Assembly: GCA_030613245.1 (NCBI GenBank)
Contig: JAUWMI010000040.1
Location: forward strand, 1 to 39,264
Origin: Candidatus Sumerlaeota bacterium
GTDB lineage: Bacteria; Sumerlaeota; Sumerlaeia; MWCT01; JAUWMI01
DNA length: 39,264 bases
Direction: 5' to 3'
In this document: piece after piece, positions 27,131 to 37,719 of the stretch
Layout of the letters: the number at the start of each line of letters is the position of its first letter
Numbering within the stretch: position 1 is the first letter of the stretch
Position numbers and translations under genes: made by a program
The notes under the pieces: generated by a model
What the model saw: the letters and a program-made list of their open reading frames with translations, nothing else
Database searches by the model: none
What the model was told of the DNA's origin: nothing

Positions 27131-28279
27131 CTAGGGCAATAGCTTGCCGTGACTAATCCAGGAGAGATACAGGTTTCCTACAATCCCTAGCAGGACAACA
27201 ACGAGGATGATGAGGTTAATGACATTCACGCGTGCGCGGATCTTTTTCACTGCCTCGTTGATGGTGGGATTAATCCGTGCCTGAAACTGATCGTCAATTT
27301 CTCTGCGCGTTAAATCCTGAACCATGCGTGGTACGCTCTTACTGGTCACCGCAGCAATGTGCTTTTCGACCAGTTCAGGAACGCGTTCTTTAGCCGCTCT
27401 AGGGATGACTTTTTGCGCAATCCCGTCAATCATGGTCACAATCTTATTTGAGACTTCTGGCACCAGCTGCTCGGCGGCCTTTTGTACGCGCGCCTGAACC
27501 TCGCGCGGCAACGTATGTTCCATGCTCTCTTTAATTCGATCGCGGACAAGGCTGGGAAGCATATGCTCTGCTGCACGCTTTACCGCCCTCTCGGTCTGTT
27601 CGCCCAAGACGGCTTCCACTGCCTCGCCCACCTTGCGCTCGGCAAGTTTTTCGACCATCGAGCGGGCCACTTCGTGCACTGTTGCCTTGACGAGTTCCTG
27701 CTCTTTTTCGGCGGTTAATGAGGTGACCTTTGCGTCCGCCTCTTTACGCGCGCGCTGATCAATCATGGTGATGACATTCTGAATGGCGCGCTCTACAATG
27801 ATCTGGGTCTTTTTCTCGACAGCGGCCTGGATGTGATCCTCAGCAATTTTCTCCATAAATTTGTCTGCCGCTTCCTCAAGAAACTTGCGCGACTTTTCAT
27901 AAATGCGCTGTTCTTCAAGCAAGGCGTGAACCTTGAGGGCCAGGGCTTTGGGTTCAAAAGGCTTCAACAGGTAATTATTCGCCCCTCGCAGTGATTGGGC
28001 TGCACGGGTTTCGGCTTCCTCTTCCGGAATCAGCAACAGAATTGGAATAGTATGGGTCTCTGCATCTGTCTTTATGACTTTTGTGGCCTCAAACCCATCG
28101 ATGCCTTCCATATCGGAGTCAATGATCAAGAGATCCACATCCTGGAGCTCCGGGTACGTCAGGGCGGCCAGTCCGTTCGAGGCTACTGCCACTTTGTACC
28201 CTTCCTCAGTCAGAACTGACTTGACTATCTCCTGCACCGCTGCACTGTCATCTACAACAACAATTTTCTCGCCCGCCAT
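27131..28279 (-). CDS. Membrane-anchored receiver protein with long helical rod
   Basis: 382 residues. A receiver domain (about 4-125) has Asp10/Asp11, phospho-acceptor Asp54 and Lys106; the usual Pro after the DxxM motif is Glu58. It is followed by some 220 residues of charged, heptad-like helix (repeated AxxKxxPxLVxxxI patterns) and a single C-terminal membrane helix (about 350-370, VINLIILVVVLLGIV) with a short tail. There is no DNA-binding or enzymatic output domain. The layout suggests a phosphorylation-controlled rod tethered to the inner membrane by its C-terminus. It is the last gene of the GTPase cluster, separated from the PATAN gene by 125 bases that include a palindrome. AGGTGG lies upstream of ATG 28279. 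A role as a membrane platform for the GTPase module is inference. Confidence 0.88.
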   Translation of the reverse strand: MAGEKIVVVDDSAAVQEIVKSVLTEEGYKVAVASNGLAALTYPELQDVDLLIIDSDMEGIDGFEATKVIKTDAETHTIPILLLIPEEEAETRAAQSLRGANNYLLKPFEPKALALKVHALLEEQRIYEKSRKFLEEAADKFMEKIAEDHIQAAVEKKTQIIVERAIQNVITMIDQRARKEADAKVTSLTAEKEQELVKATVHEVARSMVEKLAERKVGEAVEAVLGEQTERAVKRAAEHMLPSLVRDRIKESMEHTLPREVQARVQKAAEQLVPEVSNKIVTMIDGIAQKVIPRAAKERVPELVEKHIAAVTSKSVPRMVQDLTRREIDDQFQARINPTINEAVKKIRARVNVINLIILVVVLLGIVGNLYLSWISHGKLLP

Positions 28280-28404: not shown

Positions 28405-29706
28405 CTAGCTCACCACTCGTGCAACAAAGTCGTTCAGATTGAAATTGTCTGCATGAGTAATGTGCACGCTCTGGCCAAAGCTATCACGCAATGACAGAAC
28501 CATGCGAGTCACATTCTTTTCTCCCAGACGCTGCGCAGCTAGCTTGTACGTGGCTTCAAGGAGTTTTGCCATGGCCTCAACCGCATCCTCATAGCAGACA
28601 CGGATCGGGTTGCCCAGTGCAGTAAATTCCACGAAGCGTTCAAACGGGTTTACGTCAACGCGGTTTCCCACGACGCGGATGAGATCGGCTTTAGGATAAT
28701 TCATTACAATTTTTCCCCAGAATTTCTCGAGCAGGGTTTCGTCGCTGCGCGCAACGATAAACTCGTTGTTACGCATCAGCTTCGTAACAAGATCATTCAG
28801 GAAATGCCCGATCAAGCCTAAGGGCGATACAAACGTCATTTCTTCCTCCGGGCGTTCGCGAGGTTGTTGTCGCATGCGCGAGAAGATTGTTCCAACCTTC
28901 TTCAAGCGCTGCGGTTTTTCATTCTCGCCTTCCAGGCCCTCGGGCGGACGGGGAGCCAATGGGCTCAGCCCGGCGACTTCTTCCTCCTGACCAGGGGTCT
29001 TGACCTTCACGAGACCAGCGGCAAGAAAGGTGTTGAGAATGCGATAAGTTTCAAACTTCCCAAGTCCACCACGGCTGACCAGCGAGCCAACGTTAAAGAA
29101 GCCGTTGATCAACGACAGGACGAGCCATTCATTGTCGCTCAGAGCAACCTCTTGCTCAAAATCCTCACTCAGGGGTATTACCGTCAGCACCGTATCATCG
29201 TCCTGAATATTCTTAACGATCTTGTCCCACTCGTCAAGCCGCCGGGTGCCTTCAATGAGCAGCGGCTCAATTTCAAGCTCCACCAGAATATTCACGACAT
29301 CGCCTTCATCCATATGTTCGAACTTGAAGTGTCCCTCATCCCAATTGAATAAATCCCAGATTTCCTCTTCAAGCTGCAATTTAATGGCCTCACGGAGCGT
29401 TTCCTTTGAAATCAGCTCGCGTTCAATGAGAATCTGGCCGACGAGCTTATCGGAGTCAATTGCCTTCTGCAAACTTAGCACTTCTTCAAGGTCGCTCCGC
29501 TTGATAACACCACGATGTACCAGCATCTGACCCAACTTTCGCGGCCGATCCAAGGTTGAGGAGTTTACAATCTTACCCTGCTTGATGATCAGGGAAATGT
29601 TATACTGCGCCCTCTGAATGCTAAGGACGCCTGTCATCTTCCCCATGCTCAGGAACTGAAGAACTTCGGGAAGGCTAAAGGCTTTTAAGCTTCCTTCTAG
29701 CTCCAT
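28405..29706 (-). CDS. PATAN (DUF4388) domain adaptor protein
   Basis: 433 residues. The N-terminus (MELEGSLKAFSLPEVLQFL) is a typical PATAN/DUF4388 domain. It is interrupted or followed by a helical MshEN-like unit (LGQMLVHRGVIKRSDLEEVL, then KLVGQILIERELISKETL) and the closing WDLFNWDEGHFKFE strand, to about 175. A winged-helix-like segment follows (about 190-245), then a Pro/Glu-rich linker and a separate C-terminal domain (about 300-433) that I do not recognise. PATAN proteins are thought to act as protein-interaction adaptors in two-component and GTPase signalling, for example in PatA and in gliding systems. Its place between a roadblock gene and a receiver gene fits an adaptor that joins the two. 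GAGGTG lies seven bases before ATG 29706. No signal peptide or membrane helix is present. Confidence 0.88.
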   Translation of the reverse strand: MELEGSLKAFSLPEVLQFLSMGKMTGVLSIQRAQYNISLIIKQGKIVNSSTLDRPRKLGQMLVHRGVIKRSDLEEVLSLQKAIDSDKLVGQILIERELISKETLREAIKLQLEEEIWDLFNWDEGHFKFEHMDEGDVVNILVELEIEPLLIEGTRRLDEWDKIVKNIQDDDTVLTVIPLSEDFEQEVALSDNEWLVLSLINGFFNVGSLVSRGGLGKFETYRILNTFLAAGLVKVKTPGQEEEVAGLSPLAPRPPEGLEGENEKPQRLKKVGTIFSRMRQQPRERPEEEMTFVSPLGLIGHFLNDLVTKLMRNNEFIVARSDETLLEKFWGKIVMNYPKADLIRVVGNRVDVNPFERFVEFTALGNPIRVCYEDAVEAMAKLLEATYKLAAQRLGEKNVTRMVLSLRDSFGQSVHITHADNFNLNDFVARVVS

Positions 29707-29766: not shown

Positions 29767-30255
29767 TTACTCTTGAAACAGATCATCCAGCCGATCCACA
29801 GCCTCTTTGTCAAAATCGGCGTGCTGCTGCTCAAGCGCCTCCAGACTTTTTTCACGTACATTGGCCAAAATATTACGCAGCCGTTTTCCTGCATCTTTGG
29901 AGAACAGTCGAACCATGCCGAGCGTTGTCCGATCGTCAAAAATCACCGTCAAGATCATTTCGTCGCCAACGATGATATTATGAATATGATCTCGCTGGCC
30001 CTGGTGAAAGAGGACAGAGAAATCCGCTTCGCCGATGAGTTTTGCCAATGCGCGCGTGGACGAAAACGACCCGGCAAGCAGTGCGGCCAATGAGTCAGTG
30101 TCCAGATTCTTCGTAAATCCGCGCTTCGCCACACATTCCCCGTCCTGGCTGATCAGCAGAGCACATTTCGCCTCTGACTGTTTCAGGAGAAGGACAAGAG
30201 CTCTGTGGATACGCTCCGTAACTTCTTTCGTCAGCACCAACGGCCCTCTGGCCAT
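29767..30255 (-). CDS. Roadblock/LC7-like protein
   Basis: 162 residues. Residues about 15-125 show the roadblock pattern: an N-terminal helix, the strand pair ALLISQDGECVAKRG, a long helix with AALLAGSFSSTRALAKLIGE, then HNIIVGDEMILTVIFDD and a final helix. An acidic coiled-coil tail follows (to DLFQE). Roadblock proteins dimerise and act on MglA-type GTPases; MglB of Myxococcus is the model GTPase-activating member. This one directly follows the GTPase gene (40-base gap), so the GTPase is its likely partner. GAGAGGG lies ten bases before ATG 30255. Whether it is a GAP, a scaffold or an exchange factor cannot be read from sequence. Confidence 0.88.
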   Translation of the reverse strand: MARGPLVLTKEVTERIHRALVLLLKQSEAKCALLISQDGECVAKRGFTKNLDTDSLAALLAGSFSSTRALAKLIGEADFSVLFHQGQRDHIHNIIVGDEMILTVIFDDRTTLGMVRLFSKDAGKRLRNILANVREKSLEALEQQHADFDKEAVDRLDDLFQE

Positions 30256-30295: not shown

Positions 30296-31468
30296 TTAGA
30301 TGGGTGGTGTTCCCTCTGGAGTGATAATCACTTGACCGAACCGACTGTGATAGCGAATATAGAAATCCTGGTTAATGTCCTTACGCACCCACACATAAAG
30401 ATCGGTTTTCGTAAAAGACGGCATCTCCGGCGCTGCACTGAAGGTCAAGAAGGTAACATCCTCGCCATTGAGAATTTTGATTTCCTCACCGAGGATTTTT
30501 AGAATCTTCGACAGACACTTCTTAATGATATAGAAAAATCGCAGTGTGCCTGTCAATTGATAACTACCGCGCGGTCCAATGTTTGGACGATTCCTCAGCT
30601 CAAGCACACCGGAGCCGACGCGCATCCCAGCCCATCGGATATGGCAATGTTGCTTCAAGTGGAGTAGCGGGTGGTGGCTGGCGCCGGGCTCTGCCGCCCT
30701 TGGTTGAAGGATGCGTGGGCGGGGTGACGTGAGCACTGAAGTTGGACTCGCCATGGCCATCTCATCCGTTTTCTCTCGACCGGCGGGCACGACCACGGGC
30801 TCAGCAGATTTGGCTGCATGCCGATCCCGTTGGGCAATGGTCTGGATTATTTCTTCGAGTTCAGTGTCATCAGCGGCCTGCGTGCTAATTTTACTCAACC
30901 TGCTCAAGACCAACGCGGAAATGCCCTTAAGCGTATCCTTTACCCCGACGCCATGGAGGGCAACGGCTTCAAAATACTTAGCCTTATCAGAATTTATCGT
31001 CCGTTCCAGCTCCTCAATGCTGCTGATATCCGGTAAGTCGCGCTTGTTGTACTGAATAACATAGGGGATTGACCGGCAGGAATAACCATATTCCGCAAGA
31101 TTCTCCTCCAGGTTTATCATACTTTCGATATTGTCCTGCAGCCGATCGCGCTGCGAATCCACAACGAAGACGATGCCATCCACGCCGCGCAATACCAGCT
31201 TCCGCGTAGCGTTATAGAATACCTGTCCGGGGACCGTGTAGATTTGAAACTTCGTACGGAAGCCCTTTACCTCACCCAAATCCAGAGGCAAGAAATCGAA
31301 GAAGAGTGTCCGGTCCTGCTCGGTGGACAGGGAGACGAGTTCGCCCCGAGATTTCGCAGGAACAGCGTTGAAAATCACCCGAATGTTGGTTGTCTTGCCC
31401 CCAAGTCCCGGTCCATAGTAGACAATCTTGCATGAAATCTCTTTAAATGCGTAGTTCAGCGTGGCCAT
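30296..31468 (-). CDS. MglA-like small GTPase with extra C-terminal domain
   Basis: 390 residues. Residues 1-195 are an MglA-family G domain: P-loop GPGLGGKTT (19-27), the family-specific TVPGQ in place of DxxGQ, the conserved [20 protein letters not shown], and NKRD for guanine specificity. MglA GTPases set cell polarity in Myxococcus by binding the membrane or motor partners in the GTP state. Unlike MglA (about 195 residues), this protein continues with a Glu/Gln-rich stretch, a Pro/Ala linker (about 230-280) and a distinct C-terminal domain (about 285-390) that I do not recognise. The middle of the linker reads oddly (Arg/His-rich), but no better frame was found there. Genes for a roadblock and a roadblock-like protein flank it. 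It is the centre of the cluster. The ribosome site is weak. Confidence 0.93.
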
Positions 31469-31549: not shown

Positions 31550-31894
31550 TTACGGGCCGACCTCTTCAAGCTTCGAGCCCGCGGACTTCATTTCCACCCT
31601 TACCAGGCCCAGATTGGCCTCGTCCGTAGTTAAGGCAACGAGAAACCCCACCCGGGTATTCAGAAACAGTAGTTTGTTCTTCTGCGCCTCCAGGACTATT
31701 GACTCTACCGTGCCCTGGCTAAGCTTCTCGGCAGCCTTCTCCGTAGTATTAATTATTGAAGAAGCCAGTGCGCCCATCAGCTCGTCGTTAATCCCACTTG
31801 CAAAGTCAGACGAAATGACAATGCCATCCCGGCCAACCACAAAGCTGCCTAGAATCCCCGACGCTTTGTTTAACTCCGCGAGTATCCTTTCCAT
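31550..31894 (-). CDS. MglB-like roadblock/LC7 protein
   Basis: 114 residues consisting of a single roadblock/LC7 domain: helix MERILAELNKASGILGSFVV, strand DGIVISSDF, the helix ELMGALASSIINTTEKAAEKL, strand pair ESIVLEAQKNKLLFLN and LVALTTDEANLGLVRVEM. This is the size and shape of MglB, the dimeric GTPase-activating protein of MglA. It lies directly upstream of the MglA-like gene (81-base gap), the order mglB-mglA of Myxococcus and many other bacteria. GAGAGGAAGG lies just upstream of ATG 31894. I leave the symbol empty because orthology to mglB is not proven and a second roadblock gene follows the GTPase gene. Confidence 0.93.
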   Translation of the reverse strand: MERILAELNKASGILGSFVVGRDGIVISSDFASGINDELMGALASSIINTTEKAAEKLSQGTVESIVLEAQKNKLLFLNTRVGFLVALTTDEANLGLVRVEMKSAGSKLEEVGP

Positions 31895-31960: not shown

Positions 31961-32851
31961 CTAGATAGCCGCTGGAAAGCTATAGCGTGATGCCAGAAAT
32001 GCTTGAACTGATCGTACCATAATCTGAATTCTGTGGACAATATCCAACAGCGGCAATTGATTGTTGAAAATCAGCAACAAGAAGAACTGTGAAGTCACCT
32101 GGATGTTAAATAGATAGTGGTTCTGGGTCTCAACAGTAATTCGTGTCGGCTGACCTAAGCCATGAGATTGTGTGACCCACTCGATGCCCGAGTTGAAATT
32201 ATAGTAACGCGCAACGAGACCTTCCACATCCAGATTGATCTGAAGATTCTTGCAGACTACCAGCCCTTCGTCGCTATAAAGTACAAACCCCTCCAGACCA
32301 ATGATCTTGTGGAAATAGTCTTCGAGCTCCTGAAAACTGTAGACCCGCACCAAGCCACCCAGAGGAGTGGCAGTCGGCAGCTCAGGCTTCTGGCTCACTG
32401 ACTTTTGCACTGGAAGGCTGCTGCTCTGGGACAAGATACTTCGCGCAGTCTCACCCAGGAACCCCGGCGCAAAACGAACGGCCAGATGCGGTACGAACGT
32501 CAGGATGACAAACATTTGCAGCAGCGCGGAGACTGGGTTGCCGACCCATAAGGCCCCGATATTCGATGCCAGGAAATCCGGATTGAACAGACTGAAGAGC
32601 AGGCCATCAATCAGGCAGATTATCCATCGGCCAACCACAAGGACAAACGAGCAGACAAAGGTAGGCCCGAGAATAGTCTGTTTCGTATTTACCCTGATGT
32701 ATAAGAAGTAGAGGAGAAACTCCAACGCCACAACAGGGAAAAGCATTGTGTGGGTCGGGAGGGGTGGCATGGGGGTGAAAAAAAATGGTAACAAGAAGAG
32801 CGTCAGAAAACCAAAAACACAAAACAGGAAATCCTTCCTGAAAAGAATCAT
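31961..32851 (-). CDS. Four-helix membrane protein with C-terminal roadblock-like domain
   Basis: 296 residues from ATG 32851, chosen because GGGAGA lies seven bases upstream and a hydrophobic helix follows at once; the frame is open further upstream, but that part overlaps the preceding gene and looks non-coding. Four hydrophobic segments (about 8-26, 34-52, 62-85, 105-125) are followed by a polar linker and a C-terminal domain (about 168-290). That domain has the roadblock-like order FQELEDYFHKIIGLEGFVLYSDEG, GLVARYYNFNSG, NHYLFNIQVTSQFFLLLIF and a final helix. This would place a roadblock domain on the cytoplasmic face of the membrane, a possible docking site for the GTPase or the other roadblock proteins. 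The roadblock call rests on pattern, not a search. Confidence 0.75.
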   Translation of the reverse strand: MILFRKDFLFCVFGFLTLFLLPFFFTPMPPLPTHTMLFPVVALEFLLYFLYIRVNTKQTILGPTFVCSFVLVVGRWIICLIDGLLFSLFNPDFLASNIGALWVGNPVSALLQMFVILTFVPHLAVRFAPGFLGETARSILSQSSSLPVQKSVSQKPELPTATPLGGLVRVYSFQELEDYFHKIIGLEGFVLYSDEGLVVCKNLQINLDVEGLVARYYNFNSGIEWVTQSHGLGQPTRITVETQNHYLFNIQVTSQFFLLLIFNNQLPLLDIVHRIQIMVRSVQAFLASRYSFPAAI

Positions 32852-32939
32852 CTCGTGTCTCCCACGACAAGGTGCGCAACAACCCGCATTACTGCCCCGA
32901 CCACTGGCGTCCTTACACCTGTGCGCTTTCAGACTCCGG

Positions 32940-33788
32940 TCAGAGCGGTTTGTTTGCCCACCCTTCGTTTTCCAGCAACTGGTCAATCCAATGTCGCAGC
33001 TGACCAATTCTTACTGTAGCGTCGGTTACAATAGCCAACATGTGCGATTCAATAACATAGAATATCAGATAACCACAGGACAATTGGAGAAAGCCCTTGT
33101 AGAGCTCCCCTAGCTTCAAGTTCTTCATGTGCTGAGCCATTGAGTGCAGAAACCACTCCAGAATGTCGCTAGTCTGGGCATAGATACGCAATGTCGTGGG
33201 GACATGCGTTTTGACTTCGCTCAGGAAGTATTCCGTAATACCCGGAACCTCATCCAAAAAGGCGCGAATCTGCTTCGCCAGATCGTCAAACGGCAAGCGC
33301 CAATAGAGTTGATCCCGGGTAGTTTGTACGTCCACGTCAAATTCTGTCTTCACCTCACTGTATTGCTCCCGAATTTCCTGGTCCATCTGCTGGATTGCCG
33401 CATCCTTTGGACTCATTGCCTTGAGTAGACTCACCATTTTGCGAGCCCTGCTGAACTGGCGCTTCCTGACTAAGGTTTTCGCCAGCATCACCTTGGTTTG
33501 AAATGCTTGCGGGGAAGATTGTAACGTTTGTTCCAGCTCAGCCAAGCCTTCATCGTAGCGCCCCATATCATAGTAAACTTTCCCAAGCAGGGTCCGGCCG
33601 CGGACAGAGTGAGTATCATGTTGCAGTCCATCCAGGCACACAGCCAGGGCCTTAGAAAAATTCTTTGCTCCAAGCAACGCCTCGGCGTAAGGTATATACG
33701 CTGTCTGGCTCTCCCCGCTGTCGTATGCTGCCCGCAGGACGTCTAGCTGGTCAAGATACGGATCTCTGGCTCCAGGTTCTCTTGCCAT
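32940..33788 (-). CDS. TPR protein with C-terminal roadblock-like domain
   Basis: 282 residues, soluble. TPR-like helical repeats cover about 10-140 (YAEALLGAKNFSKALAVCL, LLGKVYYDMGRYDEGLAEL, TLVRKRQFSRARKM). The C-terminal domain (about 165-282) starts with the helix of AFLDEVPGITEYFL and ends with YLIFYVIESHMLAIVTDATV plus a helix, which matches the last strands and helix of roadblock domains, though weakly. It is the first gene of the minus-strand cluster, 88 bases ahead of the membrane gene. A scaffold that recruits other cluster proteins through its TPRs is plausible but inferred. The ribosome site is poor (AAAGA, distant), so ATG 33788 is the only good candidate rather than a proven start. 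Confidence 0.75.
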   Translation of the reverse strand: MAREPGARDPYLDQLDVLRAAYDSGESQTAYIPYAEALLGAKNFSKALAVCLDGLQHDTHSVRGRTLLGKVYYDMGRYDEGLAELEQTLQSSPQAFQTKVMLAKTLVRKRQFSRARKMVSLLKAMSPKDAAIQQMDQEIREQYSEVKTEFDVDVQTTRDQLYWRLPFDDLAKQIRAFLDEVPGITEYFLSEVKTHVPTTLRIYAQTSDILEWFLHSMAQHMKNLKLGELYKGFLQLSCGYLIFYVIESHMLAIVTDATVRIGQLRHWIDQLLENEGWANKPL

Positions 33789-34290: not shown

Positions 34291-34572
34291 ATGGAAATTT
34301 ACGGCAATGCGTTAGGACTGATAGAAACGCGTGGACTAGTCGGGTCGATTGAAGCGGCAGACGCCATGGTCAAGGCCGCCAACGTACGTCTCATTGGAAA
34401 GGAACACATAGGGGGCGGTTATGTGACTGTGATGGTGCGTGGTGACGTTGGGGCTGTGAAAGCGGCAACTGACGCAGGGGCTGCCGCGGCTCGACGGGTC
34501 GGCGAACTGATTTCTGTCCATGTCATCCCGAGTCCCCATAACGAGCTGGAAAAAATCCTCCCCGAAGGATAA
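34291..34572 (+). CDS. BMC-H microcompartment shell protein (PduA/EutM-like)
   Basis: 93 residues of one BMC domain, closely resembling PduA and EutM along the whole length: [40 protein letters not shown] and [16 protein letters not shown] are all family hallmarks. Six copies form a flat hexagon that tiles the shell of a bacterial microcompartment. The pore loop reads HIGGGYV, where PduA has KIGSGLV, so the central pore Ser is replaced by Gly. GAGGAGGA lies just upstream of ATG 34291. It is the only shell gene in the window; vertex (BMC-P/EutN) and trimeric (BMC-T) shell genes must be elsewhere if a closed shell is formed. Confidence 0.97.
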
Positions 34573-34671
34573 GACGTGGCGGGAGCATCTGCGTGAACAA
34601 GTGGCGCGGTGCACGCTTCGGGCGTGCCCCGTGCTTCCACATCTTTATTTGTGCGGAATGCAACGGGGCTC

Positions 34672-35415
34672 ATGCCGAACAGTCGCGATGAATTGATCGA
34701 AACGATTTACGAGCTGGTGCTTAAAGAGCTGGGGCGCGACCATGCACGCCCACCTCGAGTTCCTCCTCAATCCACCACTCCGATTCAATCGCCCGGGAAG
34801 ATTCAATCATCGGGCACGGCCGCCGCACCTACAACGCACCGCATGACGATTTCGGTTGGAGTCTCACACCGACACGTTCATATACAGCGCGAGCACCTGG
34901 ACCAGCTTTACGGTCGAGGATACGATCTCACAATTCGCAATGAGCTGACCCAGCCGGGAGAATTCGCAGCAAAGGAAACGATTACGCTGGTGGGGCCAAA
35001 GCTGCGCGCGCTGGAAAACATCCGCATCCTCGGGCCATTGCGCAAACAGACGCAGATCGAGCTGGCAAAGACCGACGCTGTGTATCTAGGCCTTGACCCG
35101 CCAGTGCGCGAGTCAGGTCAGCTGGTCGGAACAGACGGAGCGACTCTGGTCGGCCCCAAAGGTACCGTCATACTCCATCAGGGCGTTATTCGTGCGAACC
35201 GCCACATCCACATGACACCAGAAGATGCCCGGCGTCTCGGCCTCGAACATCGCCAGATTGTGAACGTCAAAGTTGAAAAAACCGATAAACCGCTGATCCT
35301 CCTCGAAGTTATGGTTCGAGTCAGTCTGAACGCCTACCTTGAGTTGCACGTTGATACGGATGATGCTAACGCAGCCAACCTGACAACCGGTGATCTGGTT
35401 GAATTGATTCTATGA
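34672..35415 (+). CDS. pduL: PduL-type phosphotransacylase
   Basis: 247 residues. PduL exchanges acyl-CoA and phosphate for acyl-phosphate and CoA inside microcompartments, recycling CoA. Both zinc-binding His motifs are visible: SHRHVHI near residue 65 and NRHIHM near 177, with the two-fold related beta-barrel halves between and after them. The N-terminus is an amphipathic helix (DELIETIYELVLKEL) followed by a Pro/Ser/Thr-rich linker, the usual form of an encapsulation peptide. ATG 34672 is chosen because it begins this helix; the frame is open 63 bases upstream from a GTG with no ribosome site. The stop overlaps the next start (ATGA). It needs an aldehyde dehydrogenase to supply acyl-CoA, which is not in the window. 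Confidence 0.94.
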   Translation: MPNSRDELIETIYELVLKELGRDHARPPRVPPQSTTPIQSPGKIQSSGTAAAPTTHRMTISVGVSHRHVHIQREHLDQLYGRGYDLTIRNELTQPGEFAAKETITLVGPKLRALENIRILGPLRKQTQIELAKTDAVYLGLDPPVRESGQLVGTDGATLVGPKGTVILHQGVIRANRHIHMTPEDARRLGLEHRQIVNVKVEKTDKPLILLEVMVRVSLNAYLELHVDTDDANAANLTTGDLVELIL

Positions 35416-36236
35416 ATAACTTTAATGACGAAACCCTGCGCAGGATAATCGAGGAAGAGCTCAGAGCCTGCTTGCAAGAACGCCCGGGCCATGGCGAGGC
35501 GCCGCAGTCGCCGCGGCGACCTGAAGCCGCGCTCCTTGTGCTCTGTACCGGCCCGTGGAAGGACGCAGCGCCTCTCGTGCCTCAGCTAAGAGAACTGGCC
35601 AGCGGCTTCTCGTTGACCTTTATCCTGTCTACCAGTTTCCAGGAGCAGAAAGGTGAGGAGGAGCTGCGCCAGCGCGTGGGAACATCGGTGCGAATAGTCT
35701 TCCGCCTGACGCACGAAGCGCTCAGGCAGGAGGTCGCTACACATCCTCTGCTCGTCGTCGCGCCACTCAGCTCCAATACGCTGGCAAAAGTAGCCCTGGG
35801 AGTTCATGACTCAGTTCCGAGCCGGGTGATCTTTGAAGCGCTGTGCCAGAATAAACCAGTCGTGGCCATACCACCACAAGCAGGGCCAGTCAGCAATGGC
35901 GCATCTGGCTCGGATTATCCTCGCATGCCATCAGAGTTTCGTAACGGGCGGCCCCAATATCTAAGAACCGTAGCAAATTGGGGCATTCGATTTGTGGACA
36001 GTGACAATCTGCTTGCTGAAGTGCAGCAAACCATGTCACAAGATGGGGAGCTGGGTGCTCGAAAGCGTGGGTCGTCTGATCGCCGCCCGAAAAAACGCAC
36101 CATCATCACAAAAGAAGACGTTCAGCAGGTTATTCTCGAGGGAAAGCGCGAGCTTCAGATTAGTCCGGATACGATTCTGACTGATGTTGCGAAGGAGCTG
36201 GCTGCGTCGGCGGGCATTCAGATCATCGTTCGTTAA
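35412..36236 (+). CDS. BMC-associated flavoprotein-like protein
   Basis: 274 residues. An N-terminal amphipathic helix (NDETLRRIIEEELRACLQE) and short linker resemble an encapsulation peptide. The middle (about 38-200) looks like the flavoprotein (HFCD) fold: an alternating alpha/beta pattern with LLVVAPLSSNTLAKVALGVHD and a following NKPVVAIP strand. This motif set is typical of FMN-binding decarboxylase-like proteins. The C-terminal 40 residues (TKEDVQQVI, then ILTDVAKELAASAGIQIIV) match a short motif found at the end of several microcompartment proteins. Flavoproteins of this fold occur in a number of BMC loci, probably serving cofactor or redox supply; the role is not established. It overlaps pduL by four bases. 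Confidence 0.8.
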   Translation: MNNFNDETLRRIIEEELRACLQERPGHGEAPQSPRRPEAALLVLCTGPWKDAAPLVPQLRELASGFSLTFILSTSFQEQKGEEELRQRVGTSVRIVFRLTHEALRQEVATHPLLVVAPLSSNTLAKVALGVHDSVPSRVIFEALCQNKPVVAIPPQAGPVSNGASGSDYPRMPSEFRNGRPQYLRTVANWGIRFVDSDNLLAEVQQTMSQDGELGARKRGSSDRRPKKRTIITKEDVQQVILEGKRELQISPDTILTDVAKELAASAGIQIIVR

Positions 36237-36372
36237 TGCGGGCAAGGAACCGAACCCTGCGCAACGAATGCCAACCCTATGGTTATTCCCTGTTTCGAGT
36301 TTATATAGCGCAAAGAATAAATCTGCGCATACAGCAACACTATTTCCCCCAAGGCGGAGAAGCTGGGCATTG

Positions 36373-37719
36373 ATGAAAGCAGTGCTTCTTGAAAAGATTG
36401 AGGCGGCTGGTGTAGTCGGCGCCGGCGGAGCTGGCTTTCCAACTCATGTCAAGCTTAACTCGACCCCGGAATTCCTTATGATCAACGCAGCGGAGTGCGA
36501 ACCCCTGCTGGCCGTTGATCAGCTCTTGATGGAACACTACGCCCCGATTCTCGTTGACACGTGCAATCGGATCACGAAGGCGATGAGTCTTAAACGGACT
36601 GTTATCGCGGTGAAGAAGAAATATACACGGGCTATCGCCGCGCTGCGCGATGCGATCCAATGCCTGAGCGGCAAGAGGCATCCGGCGTGTGAACTCGTGT
36701 TTCTGGATGACGTCTATCCTGCGGGTGACGAACAGGTGGCTGTTTACGATGTCTTTTCGCGCATTGTGCCCGAGGGGAATATCCCGCTGGCTGTTGGCGT
36801 TGTGGTTATAAATATCGAAACGCTCTTCAATATCGCGCAAGCCTGGAAGGGCACGCCGGTCACTGACACCTGGGTAACCATTGGTGGCAACGTACCACAG
36901 CCACTTACTATTCGCCTTCCTATAGGCACGCCGATCCGTACTGCCGTGTCGCTCGCCTCAGGCGATTGCTCACCCATGACGCATCTTTGCCTTGACGGTG
37001 GGCCGATGACCGGCCACCTGGTCGAAGACTGGGATGAGCCGATTACAAAGACCACAAAAGGGCTGATTCTGATTCCGCGTACACACTATTTGGGTCTTCG
37101 CTACCTCAACATTTCGCGCGGGGTGACCAGGAACGCCGTTGCAATTTGTTGCGCATGCCTGCAATGCACGGAAATCTGTCCCCGCTACTTGCTGGGTCAC
37201 AGCATTGAACCGAAGCGTCTGATGGTAGCAGCGGCGGAAGGACTGGAGCGCGGGGCGCACATTTTCCGCATGGCGCACTTCTGCTGTGAATGCGGACTCT
37301 GCGACCTGTGGGCATGCTTCATGAACCTCTCGCCCCGCTGGCTTAATGCAAAGATTAAGCGTGAATTCCAGCAGGCGGGCGAACCTGCGACCCCGCTAAA
37401 AACCCGATGGAATGTTCATCCTCTGCGGGAGGCACGAAAAATTCCGACCGCACGCCTCAAAAGCAAACTCCAGATCAGGGAATTCGACCGTCCCGCTCGC
37501 TTCGTTGAAACTCCGGATATTGAAATTCGCCAGGTTCGGGTTCCGCTGCGTCAGCACATAGGCGTGCCTGCCGCGCCATGCGTCAAACGCGGTGATCGCG
37601 TGAAAAAGGGTGATCTCCTTGCCGCGCCACGCAATGGCGAACTCGGTGCCCGCATCCATAGCAGTATCTCTGGTCGGATCACCGCAATCACCCCACAAAG
37701 CATCCTCGTTGAAAGGTAA
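36373..37719 (+). CDS. pduS: PduS-like flavin/iron-sulfur reductase
   Basis: 448 residues, the normal PduS length. The N-terminal RnfC-like part has the nucleotide/FMN loop GVVGAGGAGFPTHVKL near residues 12-28 and NAAECEPLL. Two 4Fe-4S motifs follow: CxxCxxCxxxCP (in CCACLQCTEICP) and CxxCxxCxxxxC (in CCECGLCDLWAC). A soluble-ligand-binding-like domain closes the protein. PduS reduces cobalamin or shuttles electrons across the shell in propanediol-type microcompartments. ATG 36373 is used, or the TTG three bases earlier; GGAGAAG lies about eleven bases before. The frame is open back to 36184 inside the preceding gene, but that part is not PduS-like. The two cluster motifs are complete. It is the last gene of the operon; no B12 enzyme is present in the window. 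Confidence 0.93.
   Translation: MKAVLLEKIEAAGVVGAGGAGFPTHVKLNSTPEFLMINAAECEPLLAVDQLLMEHYAPILVDTCNRITKAMSLKRTVIAVKKKYTRAIAALRDAIQCLSGKRHPACELVFLDDVYPAGDEQVAVYDVFSRIVPEGNIPLAVGVVVINIETLFNIAQAWKGTPVTDTWVTIGGNVPQPLTIRLPIGTPIRTAVSLASGDCSPMTHLCLDGGPMTGHLVEDWDEPITKTTKGLILIPRTHYLGLRYLNISRGVTRNAVAICCACLQCTEICPRYLLGHSIEPKRLMVAAAEGLERGAHIFRMAHFCCECGLCDLWACFMNLSPRWLNAKIKREFQQAGEPATPLKTRWNVHPLREARKIPTARLKSKLQIREFDRPARFVETPDIEIRQVRVPLRQHIGVPAAPCVKRGDRVKKGDLLAAPRNGELGARIHSSISGRITAITPQSILVER

Follow-up and report, generated by a model that had tools for sequence, protein, structure and literature searches.

The window analysed here, a 39,264-nucleotide stretch of Sumerlaeota DNA, carries on its minus strand a seven-gene operon in which one MglA-like GTPase is encoded together with four roadblock proteins, where one or two are usual; the Sumerlaeota are a poorly known, uncultured phylum that was earlier called BRC1. 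Two of these, one preceded by TPRs and the other by four predicted membrane helices, near-certainly end in roadblock/LC7 domains, judging from sequence profiles and structural models. Few known partners of small GTPases are as old as the roadblock proteins, and it appears that a bacterial GTPase/roadblock pair has been expanded in one operon to four roadblocks, one of which is built into the membrane. The features of the operon, in gene order, are as follows:

32940..33788 (-), TPR-roadblock protein, 282 aa, whole gene (open reading frame, Pfam TPR matches)
33339..33761 (-), TPR-type helical repeats of this protein, residues about 10-150 (Pfam TPR_19, 1e-11; AlphaFold helices)
32961..33296 (-), its C-terminal roadblock domain, predicted, residues about 165-276 (profile, hhalign, Foldseek)
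31961..32851 (-), membrane-anchored roadblock protein, 296 aa, whole gene, ATG at 32851 (orthologue alignment)
32471..32836 (-), its four predicted transmembrane helices, residues about 6-24, 34-55, 61-89 and 106-127 (AlphaFold helices, hydropathy)
31982..32341 (-), its C-terminal roadblock domain, predicted, residues about 171-290 (Pfam, hhalign, AlphaFold and Foldseek)
31550..31894 (-), RB1, stand-alone roadblock protein, 114 aa (Pfam Robl_LC7, 4.9e-12)
30296..31468 (-), MglA-like GTPase, 390 aa (Arf/Ras/Gtr1_RagA matches, alignment, motifs)
29767..30255 (-), RB2, MglB-like roadblock protein, 162 aa (Pfam Robl_LC7, 6e-13)
28405..29706 (-), DUF4388 protein (Pfam DUF4388, 1.4e-31)
29371-29538, MshE-type c-di-GMP motif in the DUF4388 protein, residues about 57-112 (NF053729, motif pattern)
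27131..28279 (-), response regulator, 382 aa, last of the conserved order (Response_reg, 1.7e-22)

Conservation of the Operon

All seven genes stand in this one order in 11 of the 15 other Sumerlaeota loci; the set is incomplete in L043, L046 and L050, each of which reaches a contig end, while L051 is truncated and its TPR gene was undetected. Those of the window's nearest matches that bear a phylum label come from Sumerlaeota or BRC1 genomes. The membrane protein was matched in 17 of 40 Sumerlaeota genomes (the window's own genome counted), and a TPR-protein orthologue adjoins it in 14/15 Sumerlaeota loci and on the Zixibacteria contig L084, where the order of TPR protein, membrane protein, RB1, GTPase and RB2 is kept and a DUF4388 gene lies upstream. 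The Planctomycetota loci contain the TPR protein, RB1, the GTPase and RB2, and no membrane protein was detected in them. In the Planctomycetota loci L086-L101, the C-terminal domain of the TPR proteins beside RB1, GTPase and RB2 is roadblock-like (hhalign 78% against the local RB1), and in several of these loci a DUF4388-matching protein of more than 1,000 aa precedes the TPR proteins.

No roadblock gene was detected beside the GTPase in other Sumerlaeota families, some of which have the DUF4388 protein and the response regulator; since the GTPase is retained there, it would be able to work without a roadblock platform. The preliminary description of this DNA had allowed the GTPase up to four roadblock partners, one of them fixed in the membrane; the gene content and the conserved synteny uphold this, while physical partnership is something that we infer.

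Roadblock Identity of the Two C-Terminal Domains

Profiles were built from the two C-terminal domains alone and searched against the 2,788 ORFs of the loci. The membrane-protein profile matched RB1 proteins with E values down to 2.7e-10, and the TPR-protein profile matched RB1 with E 7.2e-9 over its residues 1-113, i.e., full length, while hhalign scored the two domains against RB1 at 95.2% and 94.7%, respectively. Neither profile matched anything in the reversed 2,788 ORFs, and reversed or unrelated profiles in hhalign reached at most 0.5%, so the match between the C-terminal domains and RB1 is not due to chance.

Robl_LC7 of Pfam scores 19.8 bits in the membrane protein of the window (E 6.7e-4), just below its 23-bit cut-off, and reaches E 0.1 or better in 13 membrane-protein orthologues out of 16 (best 1.2e-8), while none of the 15 TPR-protein orthologues is matched. 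In the TPR protein, Pfam and NCBIfam find the repeats only and leave the C-terminal domain unmatched; NCBIfam returned no match to the membrane protein, and a PDB search with the single membrane-protein sequence gave chance matches only. The Pfam roadblock model misses some members of the family, as has been noted for MglB (PMC4316618), and for this reason the reading of the TPR-protein C-terminus as a divergent roadblock rests on profile and fold evidence.

In the AlphaFold model of the membrane protein, the C-terminal domain has predicted limits of 173-289 and consists of a helix (173-181), two strands (186-193 and 198-203), a helix (209-229), three strands (237-241, 245-251 and 256-263) and a final helix (268-289), which is the roadblock topology of helix, two strands, helix, three strands and helix. 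All of the 50 PDB matches listed by Foldseek for this model belong to the roadblock family, and they include Asgard roadblocks, MglB of M. xanthus and Thermus, Ragulator p14/MP1 and a dynein-type light chain; the probability against the listed roadblock chains is 1.00, and the TM-score by target is mostly 0.70-0.86. The C-terminal domain of the TPR protein, with predicted limits of 167-274, matches the roadblock chains 7yh1, 7f8m and 9jue with probability 1.00 and TM by target 0.66-0.72 (for 7yh1_A, E 8.7e-6, probability 1.00, TM 0.72). The TPR protein model also matches TPR proteins among solved structures, and its helices at residues 10-150 have pLDDT mostly above 90. Every roadblock element is modelled in the TPR protein of the window except strand 2 (residues 195-203, where pLDDT falls below 50 and the model is unreliable), and a roadblock domain lacking a predicted strand 2 may depart from the usual mode of dimerisation.

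These results agree with the preliminary description, which by eye had placed roadblock-like domains at the ends of the first two genes of the cluster, after TPRs in one and after four membrane helices in the other; its domain limits of 165-282 (TPR protein) and 168-290 (membrane protein) are close to those predicted by the models. The model comparison that it had proposed came out as anticipated for the membrane protein, M. xanthus MglB being among the listed matches, and in part for the TPR protein, which found roadblock matches although strand 2 was not predicted.

That the two domains are instead longin, profilin-like or unrelated alpha/beta domains is, in our estimate, very improbable. 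Such a reading could draw on the failure of Robl_LC7 in the TPR protein and on its score just below the cut-off in the window's membrane protein, but the profile, model and structure searches agree on a roadblock with clean controls, and because the helix leads, as in the roadblock order, the fold is a roadblock and not a longin.

Relations among the Four Roadblocks

The nearest solved structures to RB1 are Asgard archaeal roadblocks (7yh1, E 1.6e-17), ahead of MglB (2e-4). RB2 matches the NCBIfam MglB model NF052242 over its full length with E 6.6e-24, although its 84.8 bits do not reach the equivalog cut-off of 200, and on this sequence evidence we describe it as MglB-like and do not assign it as MglB. 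In the tree of roadblock domains, those of the membrane and TPR proteins fall together (support 79) and are joined by RB1 (87), with RB2 outside; support for this grouping is only moderate. On the simplest reading of these sequences, one roadblock is of MglB type and the others go back to a second roadblock lineage, which underwent duplication and two fusions.

Topology of the Membrane Protein

Hydropathy indicates four hydrophobic helices in 13 of the 14 aligned orthologues. Lysine and arginine residues per sequence number 1.36 at the N-terminus, 0.14 in loop 1, 1.00 in loop 2 and 0.14 in loop 3 (14 orthologues), and because the positive charges lie at the N-terminus and in loop 2 rather than in loops 1 and 3, the predicted topology is N-in/C-in, in which both ends are cytoplasmic and the roadblock should face the cytoplasm. 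The residues E44, Y48, R75 and Q112 within the predicted membrane helices are invariant in the orthologue alignment, with E44, R75 and Q112 unchanged even in the Zixibacteria homologue, and the two outer loops span no more than about 10 and 16 residues.

Several candidates were rejected in the course of this analysis. The longest open reading frame for the membrane protein begins with TTG at 33007, and the orthologues support the ATG at 32851 as the start instead. A match in L053/G075, which aligns across the membrane helices and resembles FlhB, was dropped as chance. The 416-aa ORF of L038 was not accepted as a fusion of the membrane protein with RB1, since it is the RB1 frame continuing upstream without a stop codon, in another frame than the membrane gene, and the 384-aa ORF of L097 was likewise not counted as a fusion, its upstream frame being low-complexity and GC-rich.

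The GTPase, the DUF4388 Protein and the Response Regulator

The GTPase has both the intrinsic arginine finger after G2 and the catalytic glutamine in YTVPGQ intact, as found in Group 1 MglA, in which the arginine finger and the TVPGQ glutamine are tied to catalysis (PMC4316618); because both are present, the protein is expected, from its sequence, to be a GAP-dependent switch. The arginine finger is kept in all 15 roadblock-bearing loci. In five loci of the Sumerlaeota family f6 (L147, L148, L149, L151 and L152), glutamine replaces it (TEQDQTLFFD), and the GTPase has no detected roadblock gene as a neighbour in these loci; the replacement may have happened just once, within this family. After a variable linker, the GTPase continues into an extra conserved C-terminal domain of ~130 residues (about 258-390) that has no Pfam name and that is also kept in Sumerlaeota families where a GTPase-adjacent roadblock gene was not found. 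Two families (L038, L039 and L042-L050) have a P-loop with two cysteines, GCGLCGKTT, where the window has GPGLGGKTT; the two-cysteine form may be redox-sensitive.

The c-di-GMP motif model NF053729 of NCBIfam scores 38.9 bits in the DUF4388 protein, above its cut-off. The MshE-type motif apparently occurs in two tandem copies and is present in relatives and in L084 too. Among the seven operon genes, Pfam detected no histidine kinase. In the genome of the window, GGDEF was matched six times and nine PilT-family genes were counted, and on this sequence basis a c-di-GMP input and a pilus output are possible; since these PilT-family genes are present and MglA controls pili elsewhere, control of a type IV pilus by the module is our guess.

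Proposed Mechanism and Alternative Explanations

The reading that we favour, at about even odds, is that the seven genes specify a Ras-like GTPase module on the MglA/MglB plan in which the two extra roadblocks serve as anchors, one to the membrane and one to a TPR client. RB2 would be the MglB-type GAP, while RB1 and the roadblocks of the TPR and membrane proteins would derive from the second roadblock lineage. The roadblocks would pair with one another or with RB2 to form a platform that would work much as Ragulator does in eukaryotes; the four-helix protein, with its roadblock on the cytoplasmic side, would bring the GTPase to the inner membrane, and the TPRs would hold a client to which the platform brings the GTPase. 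The state of the GTPase would be read or set by the DUF4388 protein with its c-di-GMP motif and by the response regulator. Against this reading count the strand 2 that is not predicted in the TPR protein of the window, the moderate tree support and the families that keep the GTPase with no roadblock gene detected next to it. It is known that roadblock proteins often form heteromeric GEF/GAP complexes, and that MglB is a homodimeric roadblock protein which binds MglA-GTP two to one (PMC9481161); because the four roadblocks share one operon, heteromeric pairing among them is likely by analogy. Ragulator is a scaffold of roadblock proteins that provides Rag GTPases with a membrane anchor (PMC5680233). 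A bacterial counterpart of it, i.e., a membrane-embedded platform of several roadblocks which arose by duplication within the operon, recruits the GTPase together with its GAP to the inner membrane and is coupled to c-di-GMP and a phosphorelay, is a tentative idea about which we are rather doubtful.

The membrane roadblock might be a receptor and not an anchor, with the four-helix domain sensing a signal in or outside the membrane, the TPR protein acting as an adaptor and the roadblock being a regulated GEF or GAP subunit that changes the state of the GTPase. We regard this as unlikely, even though E44, R75 and Q112 are invariant in the helices, where a mere anchor needs no conserved polar residues, and even though the operon has a response regulator without a kinase; the short outer loops leave little room for a ligand site outside the membrane, and conserved polar residues can be merely structural. 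The TPR-roadblock protein, for its part, might be an effector arm which, like SgmX, recognises the GTP-bound GTPase and delivers it to a machine, its roadblock having decayed and serving only for docking. TPR proteins are known as MglA effectors, SgmX of Myxococcus being an example (PMC7519303), and the roadblock of the TPR protein is the most divergent of the four, with strand 2 missing in the window member; nevertheless, it is conserved enough for a full-length match to RB1, and in Planctomycetota, too, the GTPase has neighbouring TPR proteins that probably end in a roadblock, so an effector arm seems quite improbable to us.

Comparison with Known Systems

MglA/MglB of Myxococcus and Thermus resembles the present operon in the GTPase with arginine finger and TVPGQ, in the adjacent MglB-like roadblock and in the link to a response regulator. 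Unlike MglA/MglB, this operon provides its single GTPase with four roadblocks, of which one is joined to TPRs and one to membrane helices, and its GTPase bears the extra C-terminal domain. Ragulator (MP1/p14, HBXIP/C7orf59 and p18) with the Rag GTPases likewise joins several roadblock subunits and membrane attachment in one small-GTPase system, and its roadblocks occur among the listed structural matches of the membrane protein. Here, however, the roadblock itself is fused to membrane helices and there is one MglA-type GTPase, with no p18-like wrapping subunit or second GTPase seen in the operon; the likeness would be one of working principle only.

We take PATAN and DUF4388 to be the same domain, and the DUF4388 protein beside the MglA-like GTPase is then comparable to MglA genes with PATAN/DUF4388 neighbours. 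PATAN proteins are found near some Group 1 and 5 MglA genes (PMC4316618). The actinobacterial conservons (CvnA-D) also combine a small GTPase, a roadblock and a two-component part in a membrane-tied operon system, and there the membrane attachment is the histidine kinase CvnA (PMC4316618), whereas the present operon has four roadblocks and no CvnA kinase that would place it among the conservons.

The survey of 449 MglA homologues explains extra MglBs by a subset with two MglBs per MglA, and its main text does not mention TPR- or membrane-fused roadblocks (PMC4316618). Roadblocks fused to TPRs or membrane helices were not found in the open-access literature searched, which is weak evidence of absence. 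The components are of known kinds and the composition is new, with four roadblocks per GTPase against the survey's two (PMC4316618); measured against the papers searched, the membrane-built and the scaffold-attached roadblocks are new types. According to one proposal, the multi-subunit platforms of eukaryotes developed from simple GTPase/roadblock pairs (PMC9481161), and with this operon the step from a pair to a membrane platform becomes open to biochemical testing. In addition, two protein families gain a name, roadblock, for a C-terminal domain previously without one.

Genomic Surroundings

Elsewhere in the same genome (G000:C1:12037-12960, L159), another MglA-like GTPase is accompanied by an MglB-like roadblock. 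Beside the operon, on the plus strand at window positions 34291-37719, there are genes which by eye resemble bacterial microcompartment shell and enzyme genes, including a BMC-like gene at 34291-34572. In two relatives, MlaD-domain genes lie upstream of the operon (L047:11221-12339 and L043:5226-6335).
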